Below the pieces are notes generated by a model, which saw only the letters and a list, made by a program, of their open reading frames with translations, had not been told where the DNA came from and ran no database searches. Below, piece after piece: positions 3 through 61,451 of a stretch of 64,000 nucleotides of DNA. This DNA is from Aquificota bacterium (GTDB lineage: Bacteria; Aquificota; Aquificia; Aquificales; Hydrogenothermaceae). The stretch spans positions 1 through 64,000 of the forward strand of contig JAADDZ010000015.1 of NCBI GenBank assembly GCA_013153635.1, read 5' to 3'. Position 1 is the first letter of the stretch. Each line of letters opens with the position of its first letter. The translations under genes were made by a program, and so were the position numbers.

Positions 3-185
3 TTTAATGATGAATTTTCTTTTAATGAAGATAAACAGGAAAGCATTCAAAAAACTTTAAATCCAATTGCTCTAATTGGAAACATTTTTACTTATGGAAT
101 TGGTTATGTTATAGATTATTTTAGTGGTGGATTATGGGATATTACTAAAAAAACTTATGATGTAGAATTAAAACCTAAACAGTAA
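3..185 (+). CDS. C-terminal 60 residues of a small probable envelope/lipoprotein gene (partial)
   Basis: An open frame runs in from the window edge and stops with TAA at 183-185. The residues contain a hydrophobic, glycine-rich stretch (roughly NPIALIGNIFTYGIGYVIDYF) followed by a short charged tail. This arrangement resembles the C-termini of many small bacterial lipoproteins, which carry a G-x-x-I-D-x-x-[ST]-G-x-x-[WY] pattern; here it reads YVIDYFSGGLW. The start and any signal peptide are off the window. It converges with the viral holin gene and the two stops overlap. It may be the flanking host gene or cargo of the element; function unknown. Confidence 0.55.
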   Translation, partial: FNDEFSFNEDKQESIQKTLNPIALIGNIFTYGIGYVIDYFSGGLWDITKKTYDVELKPKQ

Positions 186-564
186 CTTTCCATTTCTTTT
201 CAAATGTTCTACCTGTTAGATATCCACCTACTCCAATAATTAACAAAATCCAGAATTTTTCAGGAAATTCTAAAACTTTTACTTTATCGGTAAAGATAGA
301 CATATAAGGAACTAAAACATAATTATTGAAAAGAATTAAAACAAAATTCATCATTAAAAGTGGTCGCCAATTTCTTTGAAGCCATGATTTACCTTGAATT
401 TCGGACTTTACAATCTCGGCTTTGAGTTTTTCTATTTCTTGCTGATTTTCAATCAGTTCTAATTCTATCTCTTTTTTTATTTTTTCTTTTTCTTCTTTAC
501 TTTTTATATACTTTGATAAGACTTTATCAATTATCGGAAGTATGGAAGTTATTAGATTTATCAT
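175..564 (-). CDS. Holin of the 3-TM (gene-transfer-agent holin) superfamily
   Basis: This 129-aa protein has a lysine/glutamate-rich coiled-coil N-terminus (about residues 15-55). The motif SWLQRNWRPLLMMNF (about 59-73) follows, leading into two or three membrane segments (about 66-90 and 102-118). The [GK]SWLQRNWRP motif is characteristic of Pfam GTA_holin_3TM. The protein would permeabilise the inner membrane so that the transglycosylase encoded just upstream (713-1204) can reach the cell wall. Its start lies inside the preceding 61-aa gene, a 38-base overlap suggesting translational coupling. Its last codons overlap the convergent gene at 3-185. Family assignment is strong; the role in lysis is inferred. 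Confidence 0.8.
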   Translation of the reverse strand: MINLITSILPIIDKVLSKYIKSKEEKEKIKKEIELELIENQQEIEKLKAEIVKSEIQGKSWLQRNWRPLLMMNFVLILFNNYVLVPYMSIFTDKVKVLEFPEKFWILLIIGVGGYLTGRTFEKKWKVTV

Positions 565-712
565 TTTTCAACTCTTTGATTTCACTTATTAAGTATTCAA
601 TATCTTTTGTAATTGTTGCTAATCTTATTTCAAGCTTAATTATATAAAAAACAGCTGGAATAATAGCAAGATTAAAAATTTGAAGAATTTGTAAGATACT
701 TTGAAAATCCAT
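527..712 (-). CDS. Small single-span membrane protein of the lysis region
   Basis: This 61-aa protein has one hydrophobic segment (about residues 8-27) followed by an amphipathic coiled-coil-like helix (about 28-52) and a polar tail. It lies immediately after the transglycosylase stop and overlaps the holin start. Position and topology suggest a lysis accessory such as a spanin-like, antiholin-like or holin-regulating protein. No diagnostic motif is visible, so the function is unassigned. Confidence 0.6.
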   Translation of the reverse strand: MDFQSILQILQIFNLAIIPAVFYIIKLEIRLATITKDIEYLISEIKELKNDKSNNFHTSDN

Positions 713-1204
713 CTATACCACCATTCTATATTTTTGAAGTTTCTCCAAAACTTTTGAATGATACTTATTTACTCTTTTTCCTTTTTTATAGTTTCCATAT
801 CCTTCATTATATGAATGAATAACACAATCTAATTTCCCATCACATTGTTTATAAAGCCAATAAATGAAATGCATTCCTAATGTTATGTTTATTCTTGGAG
901 AAAGCAGACTAAACCAGCCCTTATAAATATTTAATGAGTAGATCTCATCTATCCATTCGGCTGTTGATGTTAAAAGTTGCATTAAACCAATAGAACCATC
1001 GTTAATATGAAATTCTGGACGAACAGCAAGAGCGTTAAAGGAACTTTCTGTATCTATTATAGCCAAAATGAGTTCTTCTGGAATTTTTGATAAATAAGGA
1101 TACTGTTTTTTTATTTCTCTTATTATGTTTAAGGCTTGCTCTACTGTTACATGTTGCAATCTATATACCCCTAATAAAGTTATTATCAATAATAGTTTTT
1201 TCAT
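713..1204 (-). CDS. Lytic transglycosylase (SLT/lysozyme-like fold), viral endolysin
   Basis: The 163-aa protein starts with a short hydrophobic signal or signal-anchor sequence (residues 1-14) and continues as a Slt-type domain. The catalytic glutamate sits in LAIIDTESSFN (about 47-57). The GSIGLMQLL motif (about 70-78) and the SYNEGYGNYKKG motif near the C-terminus complete the GEMS/GLMQ/AYNxG pattern of family 1 transglycosylases. It would cleave peptidoglycan for host lysis or, if packaged, for genome entry as in PRD1 (P7). It overlaps the upstream gene by four bases. Confidence 0.85.
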   Translation of the reverse strand: MKKLLLIITLLGVYRLQHVTVEQALNIIREIKKQYPYLSKIPEELILAIIDTESSFNALAVRPEFHINDGSIGLMQLLTSTAEWIDEIYSLNIYKGWFSLLSPRINITLGMHFIYWLYKQCDGKLDCVIHSYNEGYGNYKKGKRVNKYHSKVLEKLQKYRMVV

Positions 1205-1599
1205 TTTTTTACAGCTAAATATAAAAATGCAATAGCTCCTAATATCCCTACTAATGCTATATTTTTAGATGTGTTTTCAATTGTTTTTGTAAAGTTTTTA
1301 ACAGGTCTAAAAACATTTTCATCAATTTTTAATGCAATTTTGTCTGCAATTGGAAGTTGTTCAGAAATTTCTTTTTCAATATCTATTGGCTCAACTTCTG
1401 TTGTTTGTTCGCATTGATTAAGTATATAGCCATTGTCTAATCTAAACTTACAATCATCTATTTTATACGCTGGCATAATTGTTTTCTTGCAAATTTCAGC
1501 TTCACATTCAGGATTTTTCCAATATATGTATGCTGTATATCTACCATCAGGTTCTTTAACTATATTAATTGTGGCTCCCAGTGTTTCAAACTTTATCAT
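1201..1599 (-). CDS. C-tail-anchored protein with a cysteine-rich ectodomain, probable virion or entry protein
   Basis: The 132-aa protein has a soluble N-terminal part with four cysteines between about residues 32 and 63 (CEAEICKK, CKF, NQCEQ). An acidic linker and a single hydrophobic segment near the C-terminus (about 113-129) ending in KK follow. It matches the layout of the 126-aa and 87-aa proteins at 3906-4286 and 4288-4551. It lies between the spike and the endolysin genes. I infer a membrane-anchored structural or spike-associated protein; I know of no family for it. Confidence 0.6.
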   Translation of the reverse strand: MIKFETLGATINIVKEPDGRYTAYIYWKNPECEAEICKKTIMPAYKIDDCKFRLDNGYILNQCEQTTEVEPIDIEKEISEQLPIADKIALKIDENVFRPVKNFTKTIENTSKNIALVGILGAIAFLYLAVKK

Positions 1600-1613
1600 T
1601 TTCTCTTATCCTT

Positions 1614-3287
1614 TTAGAGATTTTTACAAATAACTTCCAAATTATAAGTATTAGTTGTGTTTACTTGACTAACAGCTATATCAAATGTGGTTCCATCAGG
1701 AGCTACATTTAATATATCTATAGCCAAATCTGTTGGACTGTTTGCTGAAAAGTTTATTTTGTTTGCTGATAAGTTATCGGATTTGGTTGCTGTTATATAG
1801 GCATTACCTCCCTCTCTTGCAATCATAAAATACAGTTTCTCAATAATTCTTGTACCAGTATTCGCAACTCGAACAAATATATCTATTTCGTATACATTTC
1901 CTATTTGGTAATTTTTAACAACATAGCTTATGATGGTGTCTTGTGCTGTAGTAGTAGTTCCGTCAAGCGTACTAACTATATATCCCTCACCAGAAACATT
2001 CCTAAACCCTTTAGTGTTATTAATATTTATTAAGGGATACTTTTGATTTGAAAACGCTACCGTCCAACTATCAGATATATTGCTATTTGAAATATAAACT
2101 TTAGATGTAGTGTTTCTATATATAGCATATTTCGGAGTTAAACTTCCTATACCCCCATCGTCTGTCCCCTTTTCCATTTTGACATTTGATAGATATATCT
2201 CGCTAACCCCTCCCATGCGAATATTTGCACTATCAAAATTATCATTTCGTCCCCCTCTTGTAATCTGCCCTCCAGAAATAAATACTACACAGTCGTTGAC
2301 TGAAATGTTATAGTTGTATCCTCTGTCAAATGAACAAGAAAGAAAAAAGTTTTTCTCTGCCTTGTAAAGATCTACATTTTTGTCTGAACACCATTCAAAT
2401 CTACACGCTACCCAATCTGTAGAGTTCGCCCCAACGCCTTGAACGACGCCTCGTACGCAGGCATTTACTTCAGCGTTTATTACTCTACAATCGATAAGGT
2501 TCTTGAAACCTTCATCACAATAAGTGGCTTTACAATTAATAAACCTTGAATTTCGCAGATAATTTGATGTCCCAAAGCCTTTCTTGAACCAATATATATA
2601 TACATTTTCAAAATGCATGTGCTTTCCATATGAAGTGCTATTTGCTGGTGTTTCTAGAAAGTCTCCAGCCTTATCCCTCCCTACAAAAATAAGATTTTTA
2701 ATTGTAACTGCATTTTCTATATTCAACATAGGTGCAGTTTGTCCAGCAGGTCTTACTAAGGCTACAAGTTTTTCAAAATATGCAAGATTGAGTGGGGCAT
2801 ATGGACTTCTATCTATGTATTCACCAATCATCTGCGTGTGTGGCGGAATATTCAAGCTCGAAACAACATAATACACTGGTGGTTTTGGAATATAGACAGT
2901 ATTTTTTAGATTTATCGCTTTCTGAAAAGCTTGAGTATCATCATTCGTCCCATCGCCAACCGCTCCGAACCATTGTGGGTATACTTGCTCTGCGTCTATG
3001 TTTGAAACTGTGAGATTTTCACCGAATATCTGAAACAGTCCAGCCTTTATTTTTGCATTTTTGATTATGCCATTATCAAGCATACCACCAGAAATAAATA
3101 CTAATTCAGAACTATGCAAATCTAGACTTTCACCTTCTAAATCAATTTTAGAATTAATTACTATTGTTTTTGGTTCTGATATATGTTCTAAATATTTTTT
3201 CAGATCCTTAACATTCTCTGGATAGAAAGCATTATTTAGATTTGTTATATATGCAGTTCCAACCTTTATGAAATCTTGAAGGTTCAT
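1614..3287 (-). CDS. Receptor-binding spike with pectate-lyase-like right-handed beta-helix
   Basis: The 557-aa protein has an N-terminal adaptor region (about 1-110). The signature PQWFGAVGDGTNDDTQAF (about 104-121) opens the Pectate_lyase_3 domain used by many viral spikes. Beta-helix-type repeats continue to about residue 420, rich in I/V-x-N/D and NC patterns. A beta-rich C-terminal domain of about 120 residues follows. Such proteins bind and often depolymerise surface glycans. The gene sits next to the penton-like protein (3292-3894), fitting a vertex-spike complex. Its central part (about 2,130-3,010) looks clearly richer in G+C than the flanks, suggesting recent exchange of the specificity domain. 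Confidence 0.8.
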   Translation of the reverse strand: MNLQDFIKVGTAYITNLNNAFYPENVKDLKKYLEHISEPKTIVINSKIDLEGESLDLHSSELVFISGGMLDNGIIKNAKIKAGLFQIFGENLTVSNIDAEQVYPQWFGAVGDGTNDDTQAFQKAINLKNTVYIPKPPVYYVVSSLNIPPHTQMIGEYIDRSPYAPLNLAYFEKLVALVRPAGQTAPMLNIENAVTIKNLIFVGRDKAGDFLETPANSTSYGKHMHFENVYIYWFKKGFGTSNYLRNSRFINCKATYCDEGFKNLIDCRVINAEVNACVRGVVQGVGANSTDWVACRFEWCSDKNVDLYKAEKNFFLSCSFDRGYNYNISVNDCVVFISGGQITRGGRNDNFDSANIRMGGVSEIYLSNVKMEKGTDDGGIGSLTPKYAIYRNTTSKVYISNSNISDSWTVAFSNQKYPLININNTKGFRNVSGEGYIVSTLDGTTTTAQDTIISYVVKNYQIGNVYEIDIFVRVANTGTRIIEKLYFMIAREGGNAYITATKSDNLSANKINFSANSPTDLAIDILNVAPDGTTFDIAVSQVNTTNTYNLEVICKNL

Positions 3288-3291
3288 TTTT

Positions 3292-3894
3292 TTATACTCC
3301 TTCCTCTATCACTGATATTTGAGAAGTTAAACCACTATCGCAATAAAAAGTTAAACCACCAGTATAATGTTTAAGCTCAAGTGTGTCTCCTGTATTTAGT
3401 TTAATACTGTTTGAGCTACTTACAGTTGACACATAAATAAGATTAGACCCTATATTTTTTATTAACAGTCTTTTTCTACTTGGATTACTACTGATGAGTT
3501 CTGTTTCTGTATCTGAAACAGATATTTCCCTTAAAGATATACTGTTTGTTCTTTCTACATTTGCAACATTATCAACGTTTTGCACATTTACAACTTGAGA
3601 TACCGAATTAATAGTATTTACTGTTCCTATATTGCTTTGAAAATCTGAGCCTAATTTAAATTCTTTGTCTGCTACTATTAGTTCTATATCCCCAGTTTGA
3701 GATGAGCTGATATAAAGAAAATTAAAATCTGTTCTGATATATTCTTTATTTCTTAGTTTTATTTTTTGTTGTGCAGGATTATCAAACGCTATCTCTACAT
3801 CAACTGTTGTATTATTTAAAAAAACCAGGTTACCTTGAGGAAAATGTACCTCATAATCCTTTACTGGAGCTTTTATTTTTACTATTTTAAACAT
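3292..3894 (-). CDS. Beta-rich structural protein, candidate penton or fibre-base protein
   Basis: The 200-aa protein is mostly beta-forming. Residues 88-118 form a low-complexity linker rich in Asn, Val and Thr (NTINSVSQVVNVQNVDNVANV), typical of viral fibre shafts. The C-terminal 75 residues carry NPSRKRLLIKNIGSNLIYVS, which resembles small beta-sandwich modules in viral structural proteins. It lies four bases upstream of the spike and downstream of the tail-anchored proteins. In DJR viruses the penton and spike genes are commonly adjacent, so penton or spike base is my best inference. No family is firmly recognised. Confidence 0.55.
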   Translation of the reverse strand: MFKIVKIKAPVKDYEVHFPQGNLVFLNNTTVDVEIAFDNPAQQKIKLRNKEYIRTDFNFLYISSSQTGDIELIVADKEFKLGSDFQSNIGTVNTINSVSQVVNVQNVDNVANVERTNSISLREISVSDTETELISSNPSRKRLLIKNIGSNLIYVSTVSSSNSIKLNTGDTLELKHYTGGLTFYCDSGLTSQISVIEEGV

Positions 3895-3905
3895 CTTTTT
3901 CCCTC

Positions 3906-4286
3906 TTAATCTCTTAAAATTAATGCCACGATTATAGATACACCGACAGCTACTAGGATTTGATACATAAATTCTTGATTTAAATCAATTGTTTGTCTTT
4001 GTTTCGGTTGTTGTGTTTTTGGTAAGGATTGAGCTTGAATTGGTGCTGTTTGAGTTCTACCAGTTCCTATTCCTTCTCCATAGGCTCTTGCTATTTCTGG
4101 CAAAACCTTTTCACCAAATTCCCCAACTTCTTCTCCTATATTTGATACAAACTTTGCTACATCTTTTGGTGCATCTTTCATTTCCGCAAAAGTATGCCCA
4201 ACAAAATTAGCAATATCTCCTGGAGCTTCTATTATTTCTTTTCCTATATGTTCAACAAACCTCCCAATGTCTCCTAAGAAAGCCAT
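3906..4286 (-). CDS. C-tail-anchored probable virion membrane protein with amphipathic repeats
   Basis: The 126-aa protein has three amphipathic segments of similar pattern (GDIGRFVEHIGKEI, GDIANFVGHTFAEM, KDVAKFVSNIGEEV; about residues 5-55). A Gln/Pro-rich linker (about 78-100) and a single C-terminal membrane span (about 107-123) ending in LRD follow. Its start is two bases from the stop of the 87-aa gene. The same topology recurs in two other genes of the element, which suggests proteins embedded in an internal viral membrane. Function inferred from context only. Confidence 0.6.
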   Translation of the reverse strand: MAFLGDIGRFVEHIGKEIIEAPGDIANFVGHTFAEMKDAPKDVAKFVSNIGEEVGEFGEKVLPEIARAYGEGIGTGRTQTAPIQAQSLPKTQQPKQRQTIDLNQEFMYQILVAVGVSIIVALILRD

Positions 4287-4287
4287 A

Positions 4288-4551
4288 TTATTTTCCCTTT
4301 ACAAATAAAACAATGCCTACCATACCAGCAACTATAAAAAGTAATGTTTTTGTATTTAAACTTTCTTCTTTTTTTACCTCTACAGATGGTTCACCTTGTG
4401 GTTGCTTTTCCCCAGCTTTTCCCTGTGTTAACTGTGTCTGTAGATATATGTCTAAATATTTAGGCACCAAATCTAAAACATTATTTACTGTCTCTTTTGC
4501 TTTATACCAAATATCATTCTGCGGTTGTTCTTGCTTCACTACAGCTTCCAT
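4288..4551 (-). CDS. C-tail-anchored small membrane protein, probable virion component
   Basis: This 87-aa protein has a polar, Gln/Glu/Lys-rich N-terminal part and a single hydrophobic segment (about 67-83) ending in KGK. It is the first gene after the terminator that overlaps the capsid gene, and its start is preceded by a GGAG box. DJR viruses with an inner membrane carry several such small proteins. I do not recognise a family. Confidence 0.6.
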   Translation of the reverse strand: MEAVVKQEQPQNDIWYKAKETVNNVLDLVPKYLDIYLQTQLTQGKAGEKQPQGEPSVEVKKEESLNTKTLLFIVAGMVGIVLFVKGK

Positions 4552-4565
4552 ATTTTTTCTCCTTC

Positions 4566-4596
4566 AAAAAAAGAAGTGGCTTTTAAACCACTTCTT
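4566..4596 (-). terminator. Intrinsic terminator overlapping the end of the capsid gene
   Basis: On the minus strand a perfect 9-bp stem (AAGAAGTGG / CCACTTCTT) encloses an 8-base loop and is followed by five further T residues (4570-4566). The capsid stop codon (4585-4583) falls in the loop, so the left arm is coding sequence. It should end most capsid-operon transcripts and allow partial read-through to the tail-anchored, spike and lysis genes. Confidence 0.75.
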
Positions 4597-5500
4597 CTGG
4601 AAGTATTAAAATTTTTGGATTAGTTCCATTTGCTTGCTGGTCAATATACAGTTCAACATTTGGAACATTCTTAGCTTTGAGTGTATCTGTTAAATATCCC
4701 CTTGGAGCAAAATCTAAACGATAAAGCCCATCTACATCATCTTGCAAGCCAAAAATGTTGTTGTTTTTATGTCGTAATGTTTCAGCTTCTACATCCTTGA
4801 ATACAACAGCACCAATTGAAATTTTTGTTCTTGTTATGATGTCGTTCCTAAGACCATTATCATCGAAAGTTACTAAATTTATAGCTCTATATGTAGTTTC
4901 TGGATTAAGCCTTATAAGTCTTCCAGTTTGTGAACCTGTTACATCCTCAATTCTAAATGTCTCTTTAAACAACGATACTGGATTTTTCTCAATATCCCAA
5001 TCAACAAATTCCTCTGTTGCTATTTTTAGTTCTGCATCTGTAACAGTTACTCCAGTTCCTATTGCTGTTTCATTTGCCCAATTAACAGATAAATCTAAGC
5101 TTGTTAAGTTCGGTGCAAAAAGCAGTGCATCGTGTGGTCTTATCATTCTTGGCAACTTGAAAAATAGTGGAGCTGTTACAGTCGCCTTTAATCCAGTAGA
5201 ACTTGGAGTGGTTGAATAATTTACATATGGAAGCTTGCCTGTATAAAAAAGAGTTTTTATAGGCAATGCCTTAAACGGAAGATCTTTTACTACTAAATTA
5301 GAGTTAGCTGTTATTGTTAATCTTTCTATAAGATTGTAAAAATGCCATGGTTTTAAGTTTACAGATGCACTAGTGTTATAAGTTACCGATAATGTTAAAA
5401 ATAGCATTGAATATGCGTTATTTCGTGGCATAGGAATTGAACGATTACCATCTGGAACAAAAGGAACTTTTTCTAATTGTCTCTCTAAGCTGTATGCCAT
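4583..5500 (-). CDS. Major capsid protein, double-jelly-roll type
   Basis: The protein is about 305 aa from the ATG at 5500; a GTG at 5503 is the alternative, and AAGGA precedes both. The pattern is typical of prokaryotic DJR capsid proteins. An early Ser/Thr/Asn-rich strand region is followed by IERLTITANSNLVVKDL (about 47-63). Then comes LPRMIRPHDALLFAPNLTSLDLSVNWAN (about 115-142), equivalent to the RPLDTLLP...LSSLxLxVxWG segment of the family. A C-terminal half of similar strand-rich character follows. The length fits this group (PM2 P2 is 269 aa). It follows two tiny membrane proteins and ends in a terminator, as expected for a highly expressed gene. The fold is an inference from sequence pattern and from the adjacent packaging ATPase. 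Confidence 0.8.
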   Translation of the reverse strand: MAYSLERQLEKVPFVPDGNRSIPMPRNNAYSMLFLTLSVTYNTSASVNLKPWHFYNLIERLTITANSNLVVKDLPFKALPIKTLFYTGKLPYVNYSTTPSSTGLKATVTAPLFFKLPRMIRPHDALLFAPNLTSLDLSVNWANETAIGTGVTVTDAELKIATEEFVDWDIEKNPVSLFKETFRIEDVTGSQTGRLIRLNPETTYRAINLVTFDDNGLRNDIITRTKISIGAVVFKDVEAETLRHKNNNIFGLQDDVDGLYRLDFAPRGYLTDTLKAKNVPNVELYIDQQANGTNPKILILPEEVV

Positions 5501-5510
5501 CACTCCTTCC

Positions 5511-5618
5511 TTATTTTCCTGGAATAAACTTATCTACAACCTGAGAAATAACCATGTTATAAATAAGCAAACCACCAACTATAAAAGTTGCATTAATAAG
5601 ATCATTTTTTGTAACCAT
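5511..5618 (-). CDS. 35-aa single-span membrane protein upstream of the capsid gene
   Basis: The ATG at 5618 is preceded by GGGGGT with good spacing, and the frame ends with TAA at 5513-5511. The product begins MVTKNDLINATFIVGG and is a single hydrophobic helix with short polar ends. It lies between the 30-aa gene and the capsid gene with spacings of 2 and 10 bases. PM2- and PRD1-like viruses encode several virion membrane proteins of this size, so a virion lipid-layer protein is likely. Confidence 0.65.
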   Translation of the reverse strand: MVTKNDLINATFIVGGLLIYNMVISQVVDKFIPGK

Positions 5619-5620
5619 AC

Positions 5621-5713
5621 TTATACCCCCTTAACAATTCCCTGTTTTTTTGCAATGTGCAAAATAAGACCTGCCAATACTCCATAGAGTATAAATTTTC
5701 CTTTGCCTTTCAT
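5621..5713 (-). CDS. 30-aa single-span membrane protein
   Basis: The ATG at 5713 has an excellent GGAGGA box eight bases upstream, and the frame ends at 5623-5621. The product begins MKGKGKFILYGVLAGLILHI and has a basic N-terminus, one hydrophobic helix and a basic tail. It is the first gene of the structural segment after the hairpin at 5769-5799. The strong ribosome-binding site and conserved topology support a real gene, probably a virion membrane protein. Confidence 0.65.
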   Translation of the reverse strand: MKGKGKFILYGVLAGLILHIAKKQGIVKGV

Positions 5714-5768
5714 AACTTCCTCCTACGAAATTTAAAGTTAAAAATATTAATTTTTGTTTTTTTTGTCT

Positions 5769-5799
5769 TTGTCAGATAACTAATAACTAATTCTGACAA
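5769..5799 (-). promoter_or_regulatory. Inverted repeat at the end of the XRE gene, before the structural genes
   Basis: TTGTCAGA (5769-5776) and TCTGACAA (5792-5799) form a perfect 8-bp inverted repeat around 15 bases containing a tandem TAACTAA repeat. It includes the stop codon of the XRE gene. On the minus strand it is followed by an A-rich run, not a T-run, so it is not a classical terminator. An operator for the XRE protein or an mRNA processing/stabilising hairpin at the start of the late genes is possible. Confidence 0.45.
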
Positions 5800-6005
5800 T
5801 AAATTTTTTGAATAGGATACCCTTCTTCTAAAAGAGTCTTTACAATTCTCAACAATAATTTTGTTGTTGCCTTCGGTTCAACAACCTCATTTTCCCACTT
5901 GGACACTAACGATGGATCTGTCCCTAGAAAAAGTGCGAACTCTAGTTGTGTCATACCCAAAGCATGCCGCAAATTCCTAATTTCCTTCCCACTCATTTTA
6001 TACAT
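5787..6005 (-). CDS. XRE-family helix-turn-helix regulator of the element
   Basis: The 72-aa protein consists almost entirely of one Cro/CI-type HTH. The pattern GKEIRNLRHALGMTQLEFAL (about 6-25) includes the first helix and the T-Q turn. LGTDPSLVSKWENEVVEP (about 27-44) is the recognition helix region. The start overlaps the end of the ATPase gene by eight bases, so the two are probably co-translated. A regulator between packaging and capsid genes may control late expression; the inverted repeats at 5769-5799 and 8349-8368 are candidate targets. Confidence 0.8.
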   Translation of the reverse strand: MYKMSGKEIRNLRHALGMTQLEFALFLGTDPSLVSKWENEVVEPKATTKLLLRIVKTLLEEGYPIQKIYCQN

Positions 6006-6642
6006 ACCTTAATATTGATTTATCTAAACTCTTTATTTTGAACTCATCTTTTTCTGTATCATATTCCATATATTTGAATCTTTCTAAATTTCTTAATGTT
6101 TCAAATACTTCCTGTCCATATAGATATTGAGAAAGATATTTAATATCATTGTTTTCTTTTGTCTGGAATAGACAAAATATATCTGTTTGAGATGTCAAAT
6201 CTTTCGGTATGTTTGCTGGTCTTCTAGAAGTTGTTATTATGTCAATTCTGCTATGCCTTCCATAATGTATTAGCTTATAAAATGCTGTTTCATCATTGAA
6301 ATTTCTTTGATTATAAAACATATCAACTTCATCAATTACTAAAACAATGTCCTTAAAGTATTTATAAATAAACTCTAAAAATTTATCTACTTTCTGCTTT
6401 TCAGCTGACTGAATAACTATTTTTTTATTAAATGCGTAAAATCTTTGATAGTTTTCTTTTAACCATTCTTCAACTTCTTCAATATTTTGAAAATATAAAT
6501 AATGCTCATTTTCAAACTGAAATCTTGGATCAATTATAATAGCTGGTTTTGAAGATAATAAAACTAACAATTTTACCAGTGTAGTTTTACCATAACCTTT
6601 TTTACCAATTACTGTTATTATTTTGTTTAGTATTGCTTCCAT
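5998..6642 (-). CDS. Genome-packaging ATPase, FtsK/HerA superfamily (DJR-virus type)
   Basis: The 214-aa protein carries a Walker A motif GKKGYGKTTL (about 13-22) and a Walker B motif IVLVIDEVD (about 95-103). A downstream GRHSRIDIITTSRRPANIP segment (about 124-142) is typical of the FtsK/HerA family and of A32-like packaging ATPases. The short length with no extra domains matches PM2 P9 and PRD1 P9 types. It should power translocation of viral DNA into the procapsid. Its start lies inside the upstream 163-aa gene, with AGGAG 11 bases before the ATG. Confidence 0.85.
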   Translation of the reverse strand: MEAILNKIITVIGKKGYGKTTLVKLLVLLSSKPAIIIDPRFQFENEHYLYFQNIEEVEEWLKENYQRFYAFNKKIVIQSAEKQKVDKFLEFIYKYFKDIVLVIDEVDMFYNQRNFNDETAFYKLIHYGRHSRIDIITTSRRPANIPKDLTSQTDIFCLFQTKENNDIKYLSQYLYGQEVFETLRNLERFKYMEYDTEKDEFKIKSLDKSILRYV

Positions 6643-7093
6643 TGTTTTTATTTCTCCTGAAAAGCTTTTTTAAATTAGAAAAAACCGTAAATAATTTGAT
6701 TTTGATTTTATCCATCATTGATAAAGTATTTTCAGTTCCTAAGCTATCTATAATCAGTCCAACTGATGCAATAGCTAAAACCAATTCAGGTTTTGAATTC
6801 ATAGATATTCCATACTTTTCAGCTGTATTAATATATGAATTTTTCCAAACGGTTTTTAGCATAGGATTTAGCTGTTCACCTCTTACTTGTACTTTTATTC
6901 CTTCAAACATTTGTAATATAAATTCTGCTTCTGCTTCATATGGATTTACTTTTTTTCCAGTAGAGCCTTTAGGTCTACCTCTCTTTTTTTTCTGTTCTTG
7001 TCCTTGATTTTCCTGATTTTCTTCCTGCGGTGGTATAAAATCTCCTGGTACTTCTCCTAAAATTTCTGGACCTATATTTTTTTCGTCATTCAT
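6602..7093 (-). CDS. Unknown protein with an AT-hook-like basic motif and a hydrophobic segment
   Basis: The 163-aa protein has an acidic, Glu/Gln-rich N-terminus and then KKKRGRPKGS (about 35-44), matching the RGRP core of AT-hooks. A conserved-looking helical region and a hydrophobic stretch (LVLAIASVGLIIDSL, about 104-118) follow. The tail is very basic and Asn-rich. It precedes and overlaps the packaging ATPase by 41 bases. It could tether DNA to the viral membrane or to the ATPase. This is inference; I recognise no family. Confidence 0.55.
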   Translation of the reverse strand: MNDEKNIGPEILGEVPGDFIPPQEENQENQGQEQKKKRGRPKGSTGKKVNPYEAEAEFILQMFEGIKVQVRGEQLNPMLKTVWKNSYINTAEKYGISMNSKPELVLAIASVGLIIDSLGTENTLSMMDKIKIKLFTVFSNLKKLFRRNKNNGSNTKQNNNSNW

Positions 7094-7344
7094 TCTTCAA
7101 CCTCTCCAAAAAAGAAATCTTTTAGTTTTTCAAAAAAATTGTCAGTTTGATATGCTTCCTTGCTTTTCAATTTTTGTTGAAGTTTATCTAATTCCTTCAG
7201 TAGTTTTTCATTTTCAGCCTTCAACTTTGCCAATTCCGTTTCTGAATCTACAGACGCTTGTTTTTCTTGATTTCTTTTTATCGCTTCAGAAATTTCATGT
7301 ATTTGCTTTTTCAGTAGTTCTAAATCATCTCTTATCTTGCCCAT
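7090..7344 (-). CDS. Small coiled-coil protein
   Basis: The 84-aa protein is predicted to be almost entirely a coiled coil (heptads from about residue 5 to 65). It has a short aromatic C-terminus (NFFEKLKDFFFGEVEE). A GGAGGA box lies at the right distance from ATG 7344. It overlaps its neighbours by 4 and 13 bases. Function unknown; a scaffolding or assembly role is conceivable. Confidence 0.6.
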   Translation of the reverse strand: MGKIRDDLELLKKQIHEISEAIKRNQEKQASVDSETELAKLKAENEKLLKELDKLQQKLKSKEAYQTDNFFEKLKDFFFGEVEE

Positions 7345-7649
7345 ATTTTCCTCCTTATATTTTTTATAATTGTTATAATTTTCTTTGTGATTCTTTTTAT
7401 AAAGTTCATTTCAAGATGCTCATAAATATTTTCAAGTTCGCAATCAATTTGGTCTAATGCTCTATCAACTATATCAACACGATTGTTTATTTTTCTTAAG
7501 TTCATATCAAGCTCATGCATTAGATCTAGAATAGACTTTTCCTCAGAAATCAATTGTTTCGCAAGATCTTCGAATATTTTGAGTTTCCGTTCTAAAATCA
7601 TTACTTTCTCCTCTAGCTCCCTTATCCTTTGTTCGTTTGATTTCATCAT
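7332..7649 (-). CDS. Coiled-coil protein with basic amphipathic C-terminus
   Basis: The protein is 105 aa if it starts at ATG 7649, which has GGAGGG six bases upstream. A second well-placed box (GAGGAG) precedes an internal ATG at 7601 that would give 89 aa. The first 85 residues form heptad repeats with many Leu/Ile. The last 20 residues are Ile/Lys-rich (IKRITKKIITIIKNIRRKI) and could bind membrane or nucleic acid. The gene overlaps the upstream frame by 107 bases, unusual even for this element. Function unknown. Confidence 0.55.
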   Translation of the reverse strand: MMKSNEQRIRELEEKVMILERKLKIFEDLAKQLISEEKSILDLMHELDMNLRKINNRVDIVDRALDQIDCELENIYEHLEMNFIKRITKKIITIIKNIRRKIWAR

Positions 7650-8343
7650 TTACAACCCTCCAGATTTTTTGATATAGCTTTAATTCTTTCTTCATTTGCT
7701 TTTGATTTGCTATTGTCATAGCTCTGAAAAGTATTTCGTTTATTTCTCTTCTTAAAGTTTTTATCCTCTTGGAGCTGATTTTTTTGTCAAGATAGAAAAT
7801 TTCAGAGATTATTTTTGAGATTCGGATTAACTTTTTAAGTTCATCTAAATTTGATTTTTCTAATCGATAAATTCTTTTTCTGATTTTTTCATAATTTTTT
7901 TTGTCAAGATAGAAAATTTTTAATTCTTCTTTCGGTCGTATCGATCGTAAAAAATGGACGCTCGGATTTTTTATAGTTTTTTTATACTTTTTAATTCGTG
8001 TATTTAGGAAAAGAGAAGAGATTAAATCTAACTTAGATCTCTTTGTATACCAACCACCACCAAAAGTAAGTTTAGAAAAACTTATTATATTATCTAACTT
8101 GACATTTCTCTGATTAAAAAAAGTTTTTTCTTCTTGCTCTTTAAAATCAACAGGTTTAAAGATTTTCTCTTTATGTATTTTCTTAAATCTTTCCCATTCT
8201 ATTTTCTTTTTCCCCTGGAACCCTCCCTTTGGCTTAAAAATAGATCGAACATATATTGTAAATAGCTCTAGTGGTAATTCTTTTTTCATTAAAATAGTTA
8301 TTCCGCCAGTTCTTCCTTTTGATATATGAATTTTATATATCAT
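7543..8343 (-). CDS. First gene of the viral operon, unknown basic protein (candidate replication or early protein)
   Basis: About 266 aa from ATG 8343; a TTG at 8349 is the alternative. No ribosome-binding site is visible, and a possible -10 box (TATACA, minus strand) lies within the palindrome just upstream, so the message may be leaderless. The product is very Lys/Arg/Ile-rich, with an N-terminal beta-like part and a long helical C-terminal half. The heptapeptide IFYLDKK occurs twice (about residues 144-150 and 183-189), encoded by identical 24-base runs. Being promoter-proximal in a DJR element, an early or replication role is plausible, but I see no HUH, primase or initiator motif. Confidence 0.5.
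   Translation of the reverse strand: MIYKIHISKGRTGGITILMKKELPLELFTIYVRSIFKPKGGFQGKKKIEWERFKKIHKEKIFKPVDFKEQEEKTFFNQRNVKLDNIISFSKLTFGGGWYTKRSKLDLISSLFLNTRIKKYKKTIKNPSVHFLRSIRPKEELKIFYLDKKNYEKIRKRIYRLEKSNLDELKKLIRISKIISEIFYLDKKISSKRIKTLRREINEILFRAMTIANQKQMKKELKLYQKIWRVVNDEIKRTKDKGARGESNDFRTETQNIRRSCETIDF
7779..7802. repeat. 24-base direct repeat, copy 1
   Basis: This run is identical to 7896-7919 and starts TTTTTTTGTCAAGATAGAAA. Both copies lie in frame inside the first viral gene and encode IFYLDKK, so an internal duplication of a peptide motif is the simplest explanation. Confidence 0.7.
7896..7919. repeat. 24-base direct repeat, copy 2
   Basis: Second copy of the 24-base run at 7779-7802, 117 bases apart start to start (39 codons), in the same reading frame. 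The spacing is a multiple of three, which is consistent with a protein-level repeat. Confidence 0.7.
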
Positions 8344-8348
8344 TTTCA

Positions 8349-8368
8349 AAGATAATGTATATTATCTT
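8349..8368. promoter_or_regulatory. dif-like palindrome / operator at the right edge of the provirus
   Basis: AAGATAAT and ATTATCTT form perfect 8-bp arms around GTAT. The core ATAATGTATATTAT is identical to the centre of the Escherichia coli dif site, where XerC and XerD half-sites flank TGTATA. It lies at the element-host junction, which carries no integrase gene. It also overlaps the presumed start of the leftward viral operon, with TATACA on the minus strand as a possible -10 box. Either a Xer attachment site or a repressor operator would fit. Confidence 0.45.
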
Positions 8369-8419
8369 AGAAATTAATATATAGATTTCATATACTAGCC
8401 AAAAACAAAAACTAGCTTA

Positions 8420-59930: not shown

Positions 59931-61451
59931 CTATTTGGAGTTTATGAGGTTTAAGAACTCTTCCCTAGTTTTTTGATTTTCCATAAAAACTCCTATCAGT
60001 TTACTTGTCACTGTGTAGCTAGTAGGATTTTTGACTCCTCGCATAGACATACAGTTCCCAGATATAGATATTTTTCCGTTACGCCTTATCAATAAAAACC
60101 CTTCTGGTACAGTTACAGAATATATGTAGTCGTTATAAGGAACATCTACTATCTCTTCTACCAAAGAGTAGTTTTCCTGTTGGGTGTTTATCGTTAATTT
60201 AAATTCATTATCCTTGTGTTTCGATAGGGTAGAGGGTATCCCTATAGTCGCATATACAGCTTGAATGGTGTCCAAAAGTTTTTTAGAGCTACTTACAAAG
60301 TAGTACTCATCTTTGTTTTGTTTTGCTTTTAATAAAAGGTAAGCCAAGAATATTTTTTTCTGTCTTTGTGATGCTTTTATCAACCAAAGGGATATATCTG
60401 TATCCTTGACAAAATTTACCAAAGGCTCAAAATCTATTGTGTATTCTATCGTTTTATCTTGATGTAATTTTTTTGTGTAATCAAACGGCAATTCCTGTAA
60501 AACTTTTTCTACTGTAGAAATACTATCTTTTTGAGAAAGATAAATTTTTAATTTTTTTGCATGTATTTTACCTGTAGACAGATATATACCTAAAAATTTG
60601 AAAAATAGGTCTGCTTTTATTTTTGTGTTTATTTTGGTCTTTAGTGATGAATGGGGGATATTCTCTTCTAACTCTATATAATCAATATCTTCTGATTGGG
60701 TGTATCCAGATTGGGGAAGTATCAAATTAGGAAGCTCTTTTATTTTGTAAGCTTGTGATATATTCCATCTTTGGTCTTTTTGGTAGTTTTCTTGTGTAGA
60801 AAAGAGGGTTTTGTGGTCTGGGGAGACTAGCAAATCTATAGATTTTCCTTTGAAATTTATCATCATTCCTTTAAAAGGATACTTTATGTAAGCTTCAGGT
60901 ATAGTAAAGCTGATTTTGAGTGTGTGGGAATTCACTTGAGCTACTTGGTCGTCTGGTTTTAGTTCTTTAAATAGCTTCCAACCTCTTTGAGTTAGGATTT
61001 GGGTGTCAGAGGAGTAACACAAATGTTCTGCTTCTAAAACGACTGCCACTCCTTTGGGGTTCAACTCTTTTTCTAAAAATTCAGCGATTTCTGCGGTAAG
61101 TCTCTCTTGGACTTGGGGTCTGTAGGCAAATTTATTTACTATTCTTACAAGCTTTGACAGACCGCACACTTTTTCATTTGGGATATAGGCTATATGAGCT
61201 TTTCCAAAGAATGGTAAAAGGTGATGCTCACAAAGGCTGTAGAACTGAATATCTTTAACGACAACCATCTCGTTATAATTTCCAATATCTTCAAATACAG
61301 TCATATTAAACTCTTCGTGGGCTTTGAACTCTTCCCACATCTTAGAAACTCTCTTTGGAGTGTCTTTTAGCCCTTCTCTGTCTGGGTCTTCTCCTATACC
61401 TTCTAAAAAGAGTCTTATAGCTTTTTCTATTTTTTCTTTATCTATATGCAT
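59931..61451 (-). CDS. folE: GTP cyclohydrolase I precursor with an in-frame intein
   Basis: Of 506 codons, residues 1-144 and 467-506 together make a normal-sized FolE of 184 aa. Residues 145-466 are an intein (see separate entry). The FolE part has the zinc ligands Cys74 and His77 in [14 protein letters not shown] and the third zinc ligand Cys467 in [10 protein letters not shown]. Because the intein sits directly before that cysteine, the enzyme cannot form its zinc site until splicing. It makes dihydroneopterin triphosphate for folate and, with QueD, for queuosine. Confidence 0.95.
60054..61019 (-). other. FolE intein (322 aa) with splicing domains and a decayed DOD homing endonuclease
   Basis: The intein begins with Cys145 (block [21 protein letters not shown]). 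Block B is [11 protein letters not shown] with His213. Block F is [17 protein letters not shown] (about 444-460), and the end is SISGN before Cys467. The penultimate residue is Gly instead of the usual His, as in some known functional inteins. The middle has a LAGLIDADG-type layout. However, the first motif reads FLGIYLSTG and the second [11 protein letters not shown], both lacking the catalytic acidic residue, so the endonuclease is probably inactive. Splicing competence is inferred. Confidence 0.92.

Follow-up and report, generated by a model that had tools for sequence, protein, structure and literature searches.

Viruses of the double jelly-roll (DJR) lineage are thought to be very old, and few of them are known from deep-branching thermophilic bacteria. 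In the Pseudoalteromonas phage PM2 (Corticoviridae, Vinavirales), the genes follow the order h, IX, VII (34 aa), II, III, IV, VIII, j, I, V, VI; the same block is present in the Vibrio phage NO16 (proposed Asemoviridae), which has been reported to integrate at dif through host XerCD (PMC9966536). Further points of reference are the Sulfolobus turreted icosahedral virus (STIV; Turriviridae) and the tectiviruses (PRD1 and relatives; Tectiviridae). The locus compared here with these systems is situated in a stretch of 64,000 nucleotides (contig JAADDZ010000015.1, positions 1 to 64,000; hereafter the window) from a bacterium of the Hydrogenothermaceae, phylum Aquificota; the window begins with the first base of contig 3 of a 1.69-Mb assembly in 28 contigs. 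Positions 175-8343 are occupied by 17 intact open reading frames (ORFs) forming one tightly packed minus-strand operon (98% coding), and this element, chromosomal and upstream of kamA, very probably represents the greater part of a provirus of the DJR lineage, belonging to a small icosahedral DNA virus without a tail. An earlier note, made from the sequence alone, had described a single-strand gene cluster at this place and interpreted it as a tailless virus element of DJR type in an Aquificota-like genome; both the cluster and its interpretation are borne out, the latter by a DJR-type ATPase, by capsid matches that are DJR capsids, and by a PM2/NO16-like gene order. The note knew of no example from the phylum, and a literature search likewise found no paper reporting a DJR virus from Aquificota; the single paper it yielded on an Aquificae virus deals with one that has a family-A DNA polymerase (PMC7689252).

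Gene order and packaging ATPase

All 17 ORFs start with ATG, a ribosome-binding site (RBS) is recognisable before most of them, and the G+C content of the operon is 30.6% as against 34.0% in the remainder of the window. In reading direction, the operon comprises the genes of a basic protein of 266 aa, two coiled-coil proteins, a 163-aa protein, the ATPase, a helix-turn-helix regulator, two hydrophobic peptides (30 and 35 aa) and the capsid candidate, followed by those of two tail-anchored proteins (87 and 126 aa), a 200-aa protein, a 557-aa spike, a tail-anchored protein of 132 aa, an SLT lysozyme, a 61-aa protein and a holin. The succession h - ATPase - small transmembrane (TM) protein - major capsid protein (MCP) - TM proteins - spike - lysin, as in Corticoviridae/Vinavirales, is thereby found in the element.

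The ATPase (5998-6642, 214 aa; this and all other operon genes are on the minus strand) belongs to the HerA/FtsK superfamily, as the earlier note had recognised, and is assigned to Zot/AAA by Pfam and to PHROG 2666 (E=6e-25), a family that also takes in the ATPases of PM2, PRD1, STIV and NO16. When a profile of three ATPase sequences was compared with all PDB sequences, STIV B204 ranked first (E=2e-15, 1.8e-14), followed by enzymes of other kinds (TdpA, 5e-6; HerA, 7e-5); the main phage-record match by tblastn was the tectivirus P9 (PRD1 and relatives), at a marginal E of about 0.04. Judged by its sequence, the protein is firmly assigned as a DJR-virus genome-packaging ATPase of the PM2 P9/PRD1 P9/STIV B204 type, and the P9/B204 family is a feature of DJR viruses (Bamfordvirae, Tectiliviricetes).

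A related ATPase, likewise of the STIV/PM2 packaging type, was observed on a contig of a Persephonella metagenome-assembled genome (MAG; L033/L071, 2614-3351, plus strand), beside a MobA-like relaxase and a resolvase; no capsid gene was found on this contig, which is either a plasmid with a viral ATPase or chimeric. Together with the existence of cellular DJR proteins (PMC8812541), this mobilisable, plasmid-like contig could be taken to favor a plasmid or cellular operon in which a HerA-like ATPase and a jelly-roll protein serve a non-viral function. Such an origin is very improbable for the window element, in which the two genes are surrounded by a lysis cassette, a spike gene and a PM2-like gene order, and in which the nearest solved ATPase is STIV B204. 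A further locus surfaced in the ATPase-profile scan of species genomes: contig JAJYVS010000050.1 of an Actinomycetes MAG (L069) carries at 5523-8380 a PRD1-like DJR virus with a P9-type ATPase, a tyrosine recombinase-like ORF and, nearby, a capsid gene assigned to the P3 family of PRD1 (Pfam PF09018, E=6e-7).

Second occurrence in another genus

The core of the element recurs on an 8.3-kb contig (JAADDV010000121.1; L013/L070) of the Aquificota MAG L_MetaBat.11, which belongs to another genus of Hydrogenothermaceae. Its order is 139 aa - ATPase - membrane peptides - capsid - 87 - 159 - 133 - SLT, i.e. membrane peptides and SLT lysozyme are placed as in the window; the ATPases are 33% identical and the capsids 23%, the L013 protein being the sole relative found of the 305-aa capsid candidate. 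In contrast to the window element, L013 has no depolymerase spike. Neither an exact terminal inverted repeat (TIR) nor a circular overlap was found in it. A 461-aa protein encoded there (5166-6551, minus strand) shows, by eye, motifs resembling those of family-B DNA polymerases (PolB; DIKSAY, KLARNSIIG, YVNTDG); this reading was rejected, as it relied on the by-eye motifs only and was given no support by hidden Markov model (HMM) and hhalign comparisons, and no other Aquificota genome among those searched has a relative of the protein. In view of the ATPase E-values, the shuffle tests on the capsid and this second occurrence of the arrangement, the observation is considered to be beyond chance.

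Capsid candidate

The ORF at 4583-5500 (preferred start: ATG at 5500) encodes the 305-aa candidate for a DJR-type major capsid protein. The residue pattern named in the earlier note is present (RPHDALLF..LTSLDLSVNW), and no rival cellular family surfaced for the protein. Pfam P2_N matches the protein at E=0.011 and 15.9 bits, below the cut-off of 25 bits; the match to PHROG 28223 (E=7e-4) leads to a family not traceable to any named virus. A profile of the window and L013 capsids scores 8.6 bits against PM2 P2, a value that was reached by none of 2000 shuffles and exceeds that of every unrelated ORF scored; a second profile, built from nine capsids of Vinavirales and autolykiviruses, scores 5.7 bits on both the window and the L013 protein, a level attained by 1 and 2 of 2000 shuffles and none of 76 real ORFs. 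The alignment with PM2 P2 falls in the C-terminal half (YRLDFAPRGYLTDTL versus YTIDFMLEGDVYQSV).

Structural models were calculated with AlphaFold2 from the single sequence and from the two sequences and compared by Foldseek with 350,542 PDB chains. For both models the STIV capsid (2bbd) ranks first (E=0.008 for the single-sequence, 0.023 for the two-sequence model); it is followed by the PRD1, PR772, vaccinia D13 and mavirus capsids in the case of the two-sequence model, and mostly by unrelated small proteins among the other listed matches of the single-sequence model. A fold search against BFVD was uninformative except for the STIV and Gluconobacter GC1 capsids at ranks 9-10. With respect to two tandem jelly rolls, DJR capsids head the PDB list, the N-terminal strands of the two-sequence model reach a pLDDT of about 60-73, and the C-terminal half is linked to PM2 P2 by sequence. 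No single value is significant alone, but sequence and structure point the same way for different halves of the protein, and the assignment as DJR capsid is therefore made with high but not full confidence.

Several results weigh against the provirus interpretation. The mean pLDDT of the capsid models is low (36 for the single-sequence and 40 for the two-sequence model), no structural match attains E<=0.001, and modelling of moderate confidence is restricted to the N-terminal half. No relative of the capsid was found among 50,697 phage records; IMG/VR viral contigs, searched by pattern and by tblastn (capsid, ATPase, their alignments, the L013 461-aa and the 200-aa proteins), did not yield a relative either. 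A home-made DJR-ATPase HMM gives cellular HerA 53-68 bits, in two fragments, and does not by itself separate viral from cellular enzymes; since HerA scores as high as the viral proteins, this HMM was dropped as sole proof, and the ATPase assignment relies on PHROG 2666, the PDB ranking and the gene context. Finally, the 8.2 kb of the element in view contain no recognisable gene for replication or integration, the contig ending at position 1. Candidate capsid matches obtained in the phylum-wide search (L003, L004, L005) were discarded as ordinary host regions with radical-SAM, restriction-modification and chemotaxis/flagellar genes.

Borders, promoter-like stretch and possible attachment site

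At the right side, about 130 bp upstream of kamA are conserved in two congeners, and this conserved DNA begins at 8348; the border lies near this position, close to the limit of 8350 first proposed. The element/host junction (8323-8367, minus strand) contains a leftward promoter-like stretch (TTGAAA-17-TATATC) with the palindrome AGATAATRTAYATTATCT preceding it. Three congeners possess one exact copy of the palindrome per genome, each time upstream of kamA; a promoter-like stretch follows it there (in L042, TTGAAA-17-TATACT). In the window (8323-8400) the centre of the palindrome is reversed, and the element side bears a mirror copy of the promoter arm that faces the viral operon. The palindrome may serve as an attachment core in reverse orientation or else as an operator shared by divergent promoters. 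A dif-like core (ATAATGTATATTAT) is situated at the junction and occurs once in the genome; as it is not conserved beyond the genus and overlaps a promoter, it can be regarded only as a putative dif site. No second att copy was seen, and the classical dif pattern TAAN6TTATGTNAA was not clearly commoner than reversed-pattern controls.

The left limit of 186 given in the earlier note is not an established border: the contig end is close by, and the left border of the element is out of view. The tail end of a converging gene (3-185, plus strand) has weak similarity to host lipoproteins of 118 aa (E=0.006-0.02) and may be host flank or cargo of the element; bases 1-26 are a 25/26 inverted copy of 335-360, perhaps an assembly artefact. 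The lack of a visible replication or integrase gene, the absence of any match to a Phage_GPA-type Rep when the entire assembly was scanned (a scan for which P12 itself did not serve as query) and the host-type small lipoprotein-family gene at the left edge would all suit a DJR provirus that is cryptic and no longer infectious, or a satellite relying on a helper for replication. This possibility is to be taken seriously but remains rather unlikely: the visible ORFs are all intact and mostly preceded by an RBS, and replication, lysogeny and integration genes may be merely out of view because the contig end cuts off the left side of the element.

Membrane, spike and lysis genes

Five small hydrophobic or tail-anchored proteins surround the capsid gene, in agreement with the tiny and tail-anchored membrane proteins of the earlier note. 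The hydrophobic peptide of 30 aa (5621-5713) is preceded by an AGGAGG RBS 5 nt upstream and resembles PM2 P7 in size and position; the same holds for the 35-aa peptide with a single predicted TM segment (5511-5618), whose place is that of PM2 P7 (34 aa) and of the 36/37-aa peptides of L013. The 87-aa protein (4288-4551) has a C-terminal TM segment and is PM2 P3-like by position and tail, KTLLFIVAGMVGIVLFVKGK resembling KTLLLGFGGLLVLGLVMRGNK of P3 when judged by eye. Tail anchors are also present in the 126-aa protein (3906-4286; C-terminal TM segment with a hydropathy of 2.55, layout like L013 1900-2379) and in the 132-aa protein (1201-1599).

The spike of 557 aa (1614-3287) is predicted to be a depolymerase-like beta-helix: Pfam Pect-lyase_RHGA_epim matches above the cut-off, and further matches are PHROG 6518 (E=7e-35) and PDB 7xy1, a Klebsiella phage tail fibre (E=4e-17), which points to a role in glycan binding and trimming. 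The lysis cassette consists of a lytic transglycosylase with SLT domain (713-1204, 163 aa; Pfam SLT E=1.6e-20), a 61-aa membrane protein with N-terminal TM segment adjoining the holin (527-712), and the holin itself (175-564, 129 aa; Pfam GTA_holin_3TM E=4.1e-13; PHROG 3427 E=1.3e-31). Both spike and cassette had been called correctly, and the accompanying statement that no tailed-phage hallmark was present holds for terminase, portal, HK97-type capsid and tail genes. It does not hold for the spike, which is akin to depolymerase tail spikes of Klebsiella phages, nor for the holin and lysozyme, whose families occur in tailed phages. These three genes could suggest a tailed prophage reduced to spike, lysis genes and ATPase; such a remnant is nonetheless highly improbable, given that all other tailed-phage genes named above are lacking, that a DJR-type packaging ATPase is present, that the 17 ORFs are intact and packed, and that a second genome shows the same core order.

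Remaining genes

The first gene of the operon (7543-8343) encodes the basic 266-aa protein with a net charge of about +39 and no family match, possibly a DNA-binding or replication protein; a perfect 24-bp direct repeat within it (7779-7802 and 7896-7919) is either an iteron or reflects a duplicated IFYLDKK motif. The adjoining proteins of 105 aa (7332-7649) and 84 aa (7090-7344) gave generic coiled-coil matches only. The 163-aa protein (6602-7093), directly before the ATPase and thus at the place of PM2 orf h, gave no significant match in sequence searches; its layout, with a charged N-terminus and a hydrophobic stretch near the C-terminus, is shared with PM2, NO16, PG21 and L013. The helix-turn-helix regulator (5787-6005, 72 aa) is assigned by Pfam HTH_3 (E=1.5e-7) and PHROG 2104 (E=7e-12). 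The 200-aa protein preceding the spike (3292-3894) has no Pfam or PHROG family match and no relative in viral contigs; by its position it is possibly a vertex or adaptor protein.

Outside the element, the window contains at 59931-61451 (minus strand) a FolE (GTP cyclohydrolase I) gene into which an intein-like segment is inserted in frame (about residues 146-470, C...SGN-C ends), the FolE models matching in two stretches.

Proposed life cycle and significance

The virus is most likely temperate, tailless, membrane-containing and icosahedral. According to the model, the operon would be transcribed leftward from the promoter at the host junction; capsid trimers would assemble round a membrane inside the particle, which the small tail-anchored proteins would hold in place, and the genome would be packed by the ATP-driven ATPase. 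Entry would proceed by binding and trimming of host surface glycans through the beta-helix spike, and exit by opening of the cell through holin and transglycosylase. Integration may be carried out by a host recombinase at the palindromic core; replication and lysogeny genes would be expected in the part lost at the contig end. A more far-reaching and tentative proposal is a thermophilic bacterial DJR lineage of family or order rank that combines the gene plan of PM2 with an ATPase and a capsid fold like those of STIV, thereby connecting the bacterial with the archaeal DJR viruses, and that integrates by host recombinase at the palindromic core of the kamA promoter, bringing a mirror promoter copy. 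The Hydrogenothermaceae provirus supplies a host lineage and two divergent sequences for the building of profiles, and the element allows a direct test of whether hot environments harbor a bridge between the bacterial (PM2) and archaeal (STIV) branches.

Comparison with known DJR viruses

In its presumed mode of operation the element resembles PM2, NO16 and STIV. The likeness to PM2 consists in the order of h, ATPase, 34-aa membrane peptide, MCP, tail-anchored proteins, spike and lysin, and in the alignment of P2 with the C-terminal half of the capsid candidate. In contrast to PM2, the element has a depolymerase-like beta-helix spike and a GTA-type holin, its capsid is too divergent for PHROG 8536, and a P12-type Rep was not found for it (visible part; Phage_GPA scan of the assembly). 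NO16 is a temperate 10-kb DJR provirus with the same gene block; it differs in that a single comparison finds no significant capsid similarity, and in that the core of the element is a palindrome upstream of kamA, dif-like by resemblance. STIV provides the nearest solved ATPase and the nearest capsid fold, and its ATPase gene also precedes the capsid gene, whereas its host is an archaeon and its genome (17.7 kb) carries its own integrase and a pyramid lysis protein. Tectiviridae share a transglycosylase and a holin at the operon end as well as the aforementioned P9 match; however, the capsid of the element has 305 aa versus 395.

The PM2/NO16 gene order and the proximity of ATPase and capsid fold to STIV might suggest a true member of an existing family, either Corticoviridae/NO16-like or Turriviridae. 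This is improbable, although less so than a cellular operon or a tailed remnant: the capsid matches neither PHROG 8536, as the tested Vinavirales and autolykivirus capsids do, nor PHROG 37140, which comprises the B345-type capsid of Turriviridae; no Rep is seen in the visible part, and STIV hosts are archaea. The element capsid likewise stays below the cut-off for the P2 family (PHROG 8536/Pfam P2_N) and does not match the P3 family of Tectiviridae (Pfam PF09018/PHROG 5863), though the L069 capsid does. Of the Autolykiviridae/Tectiviridae features, neither a protein-primed PolB nor a terminal protein is present in the visible part, the left end of the element being unseen. By the capsid families tested, the element is placed outside Corticoviridae, Turriviridae, Autolykiviridae and Tectiviridae, while the Rep, PolB and TIR features depend on its left part; it probably represents a new family-level lineage of DJR viruses.

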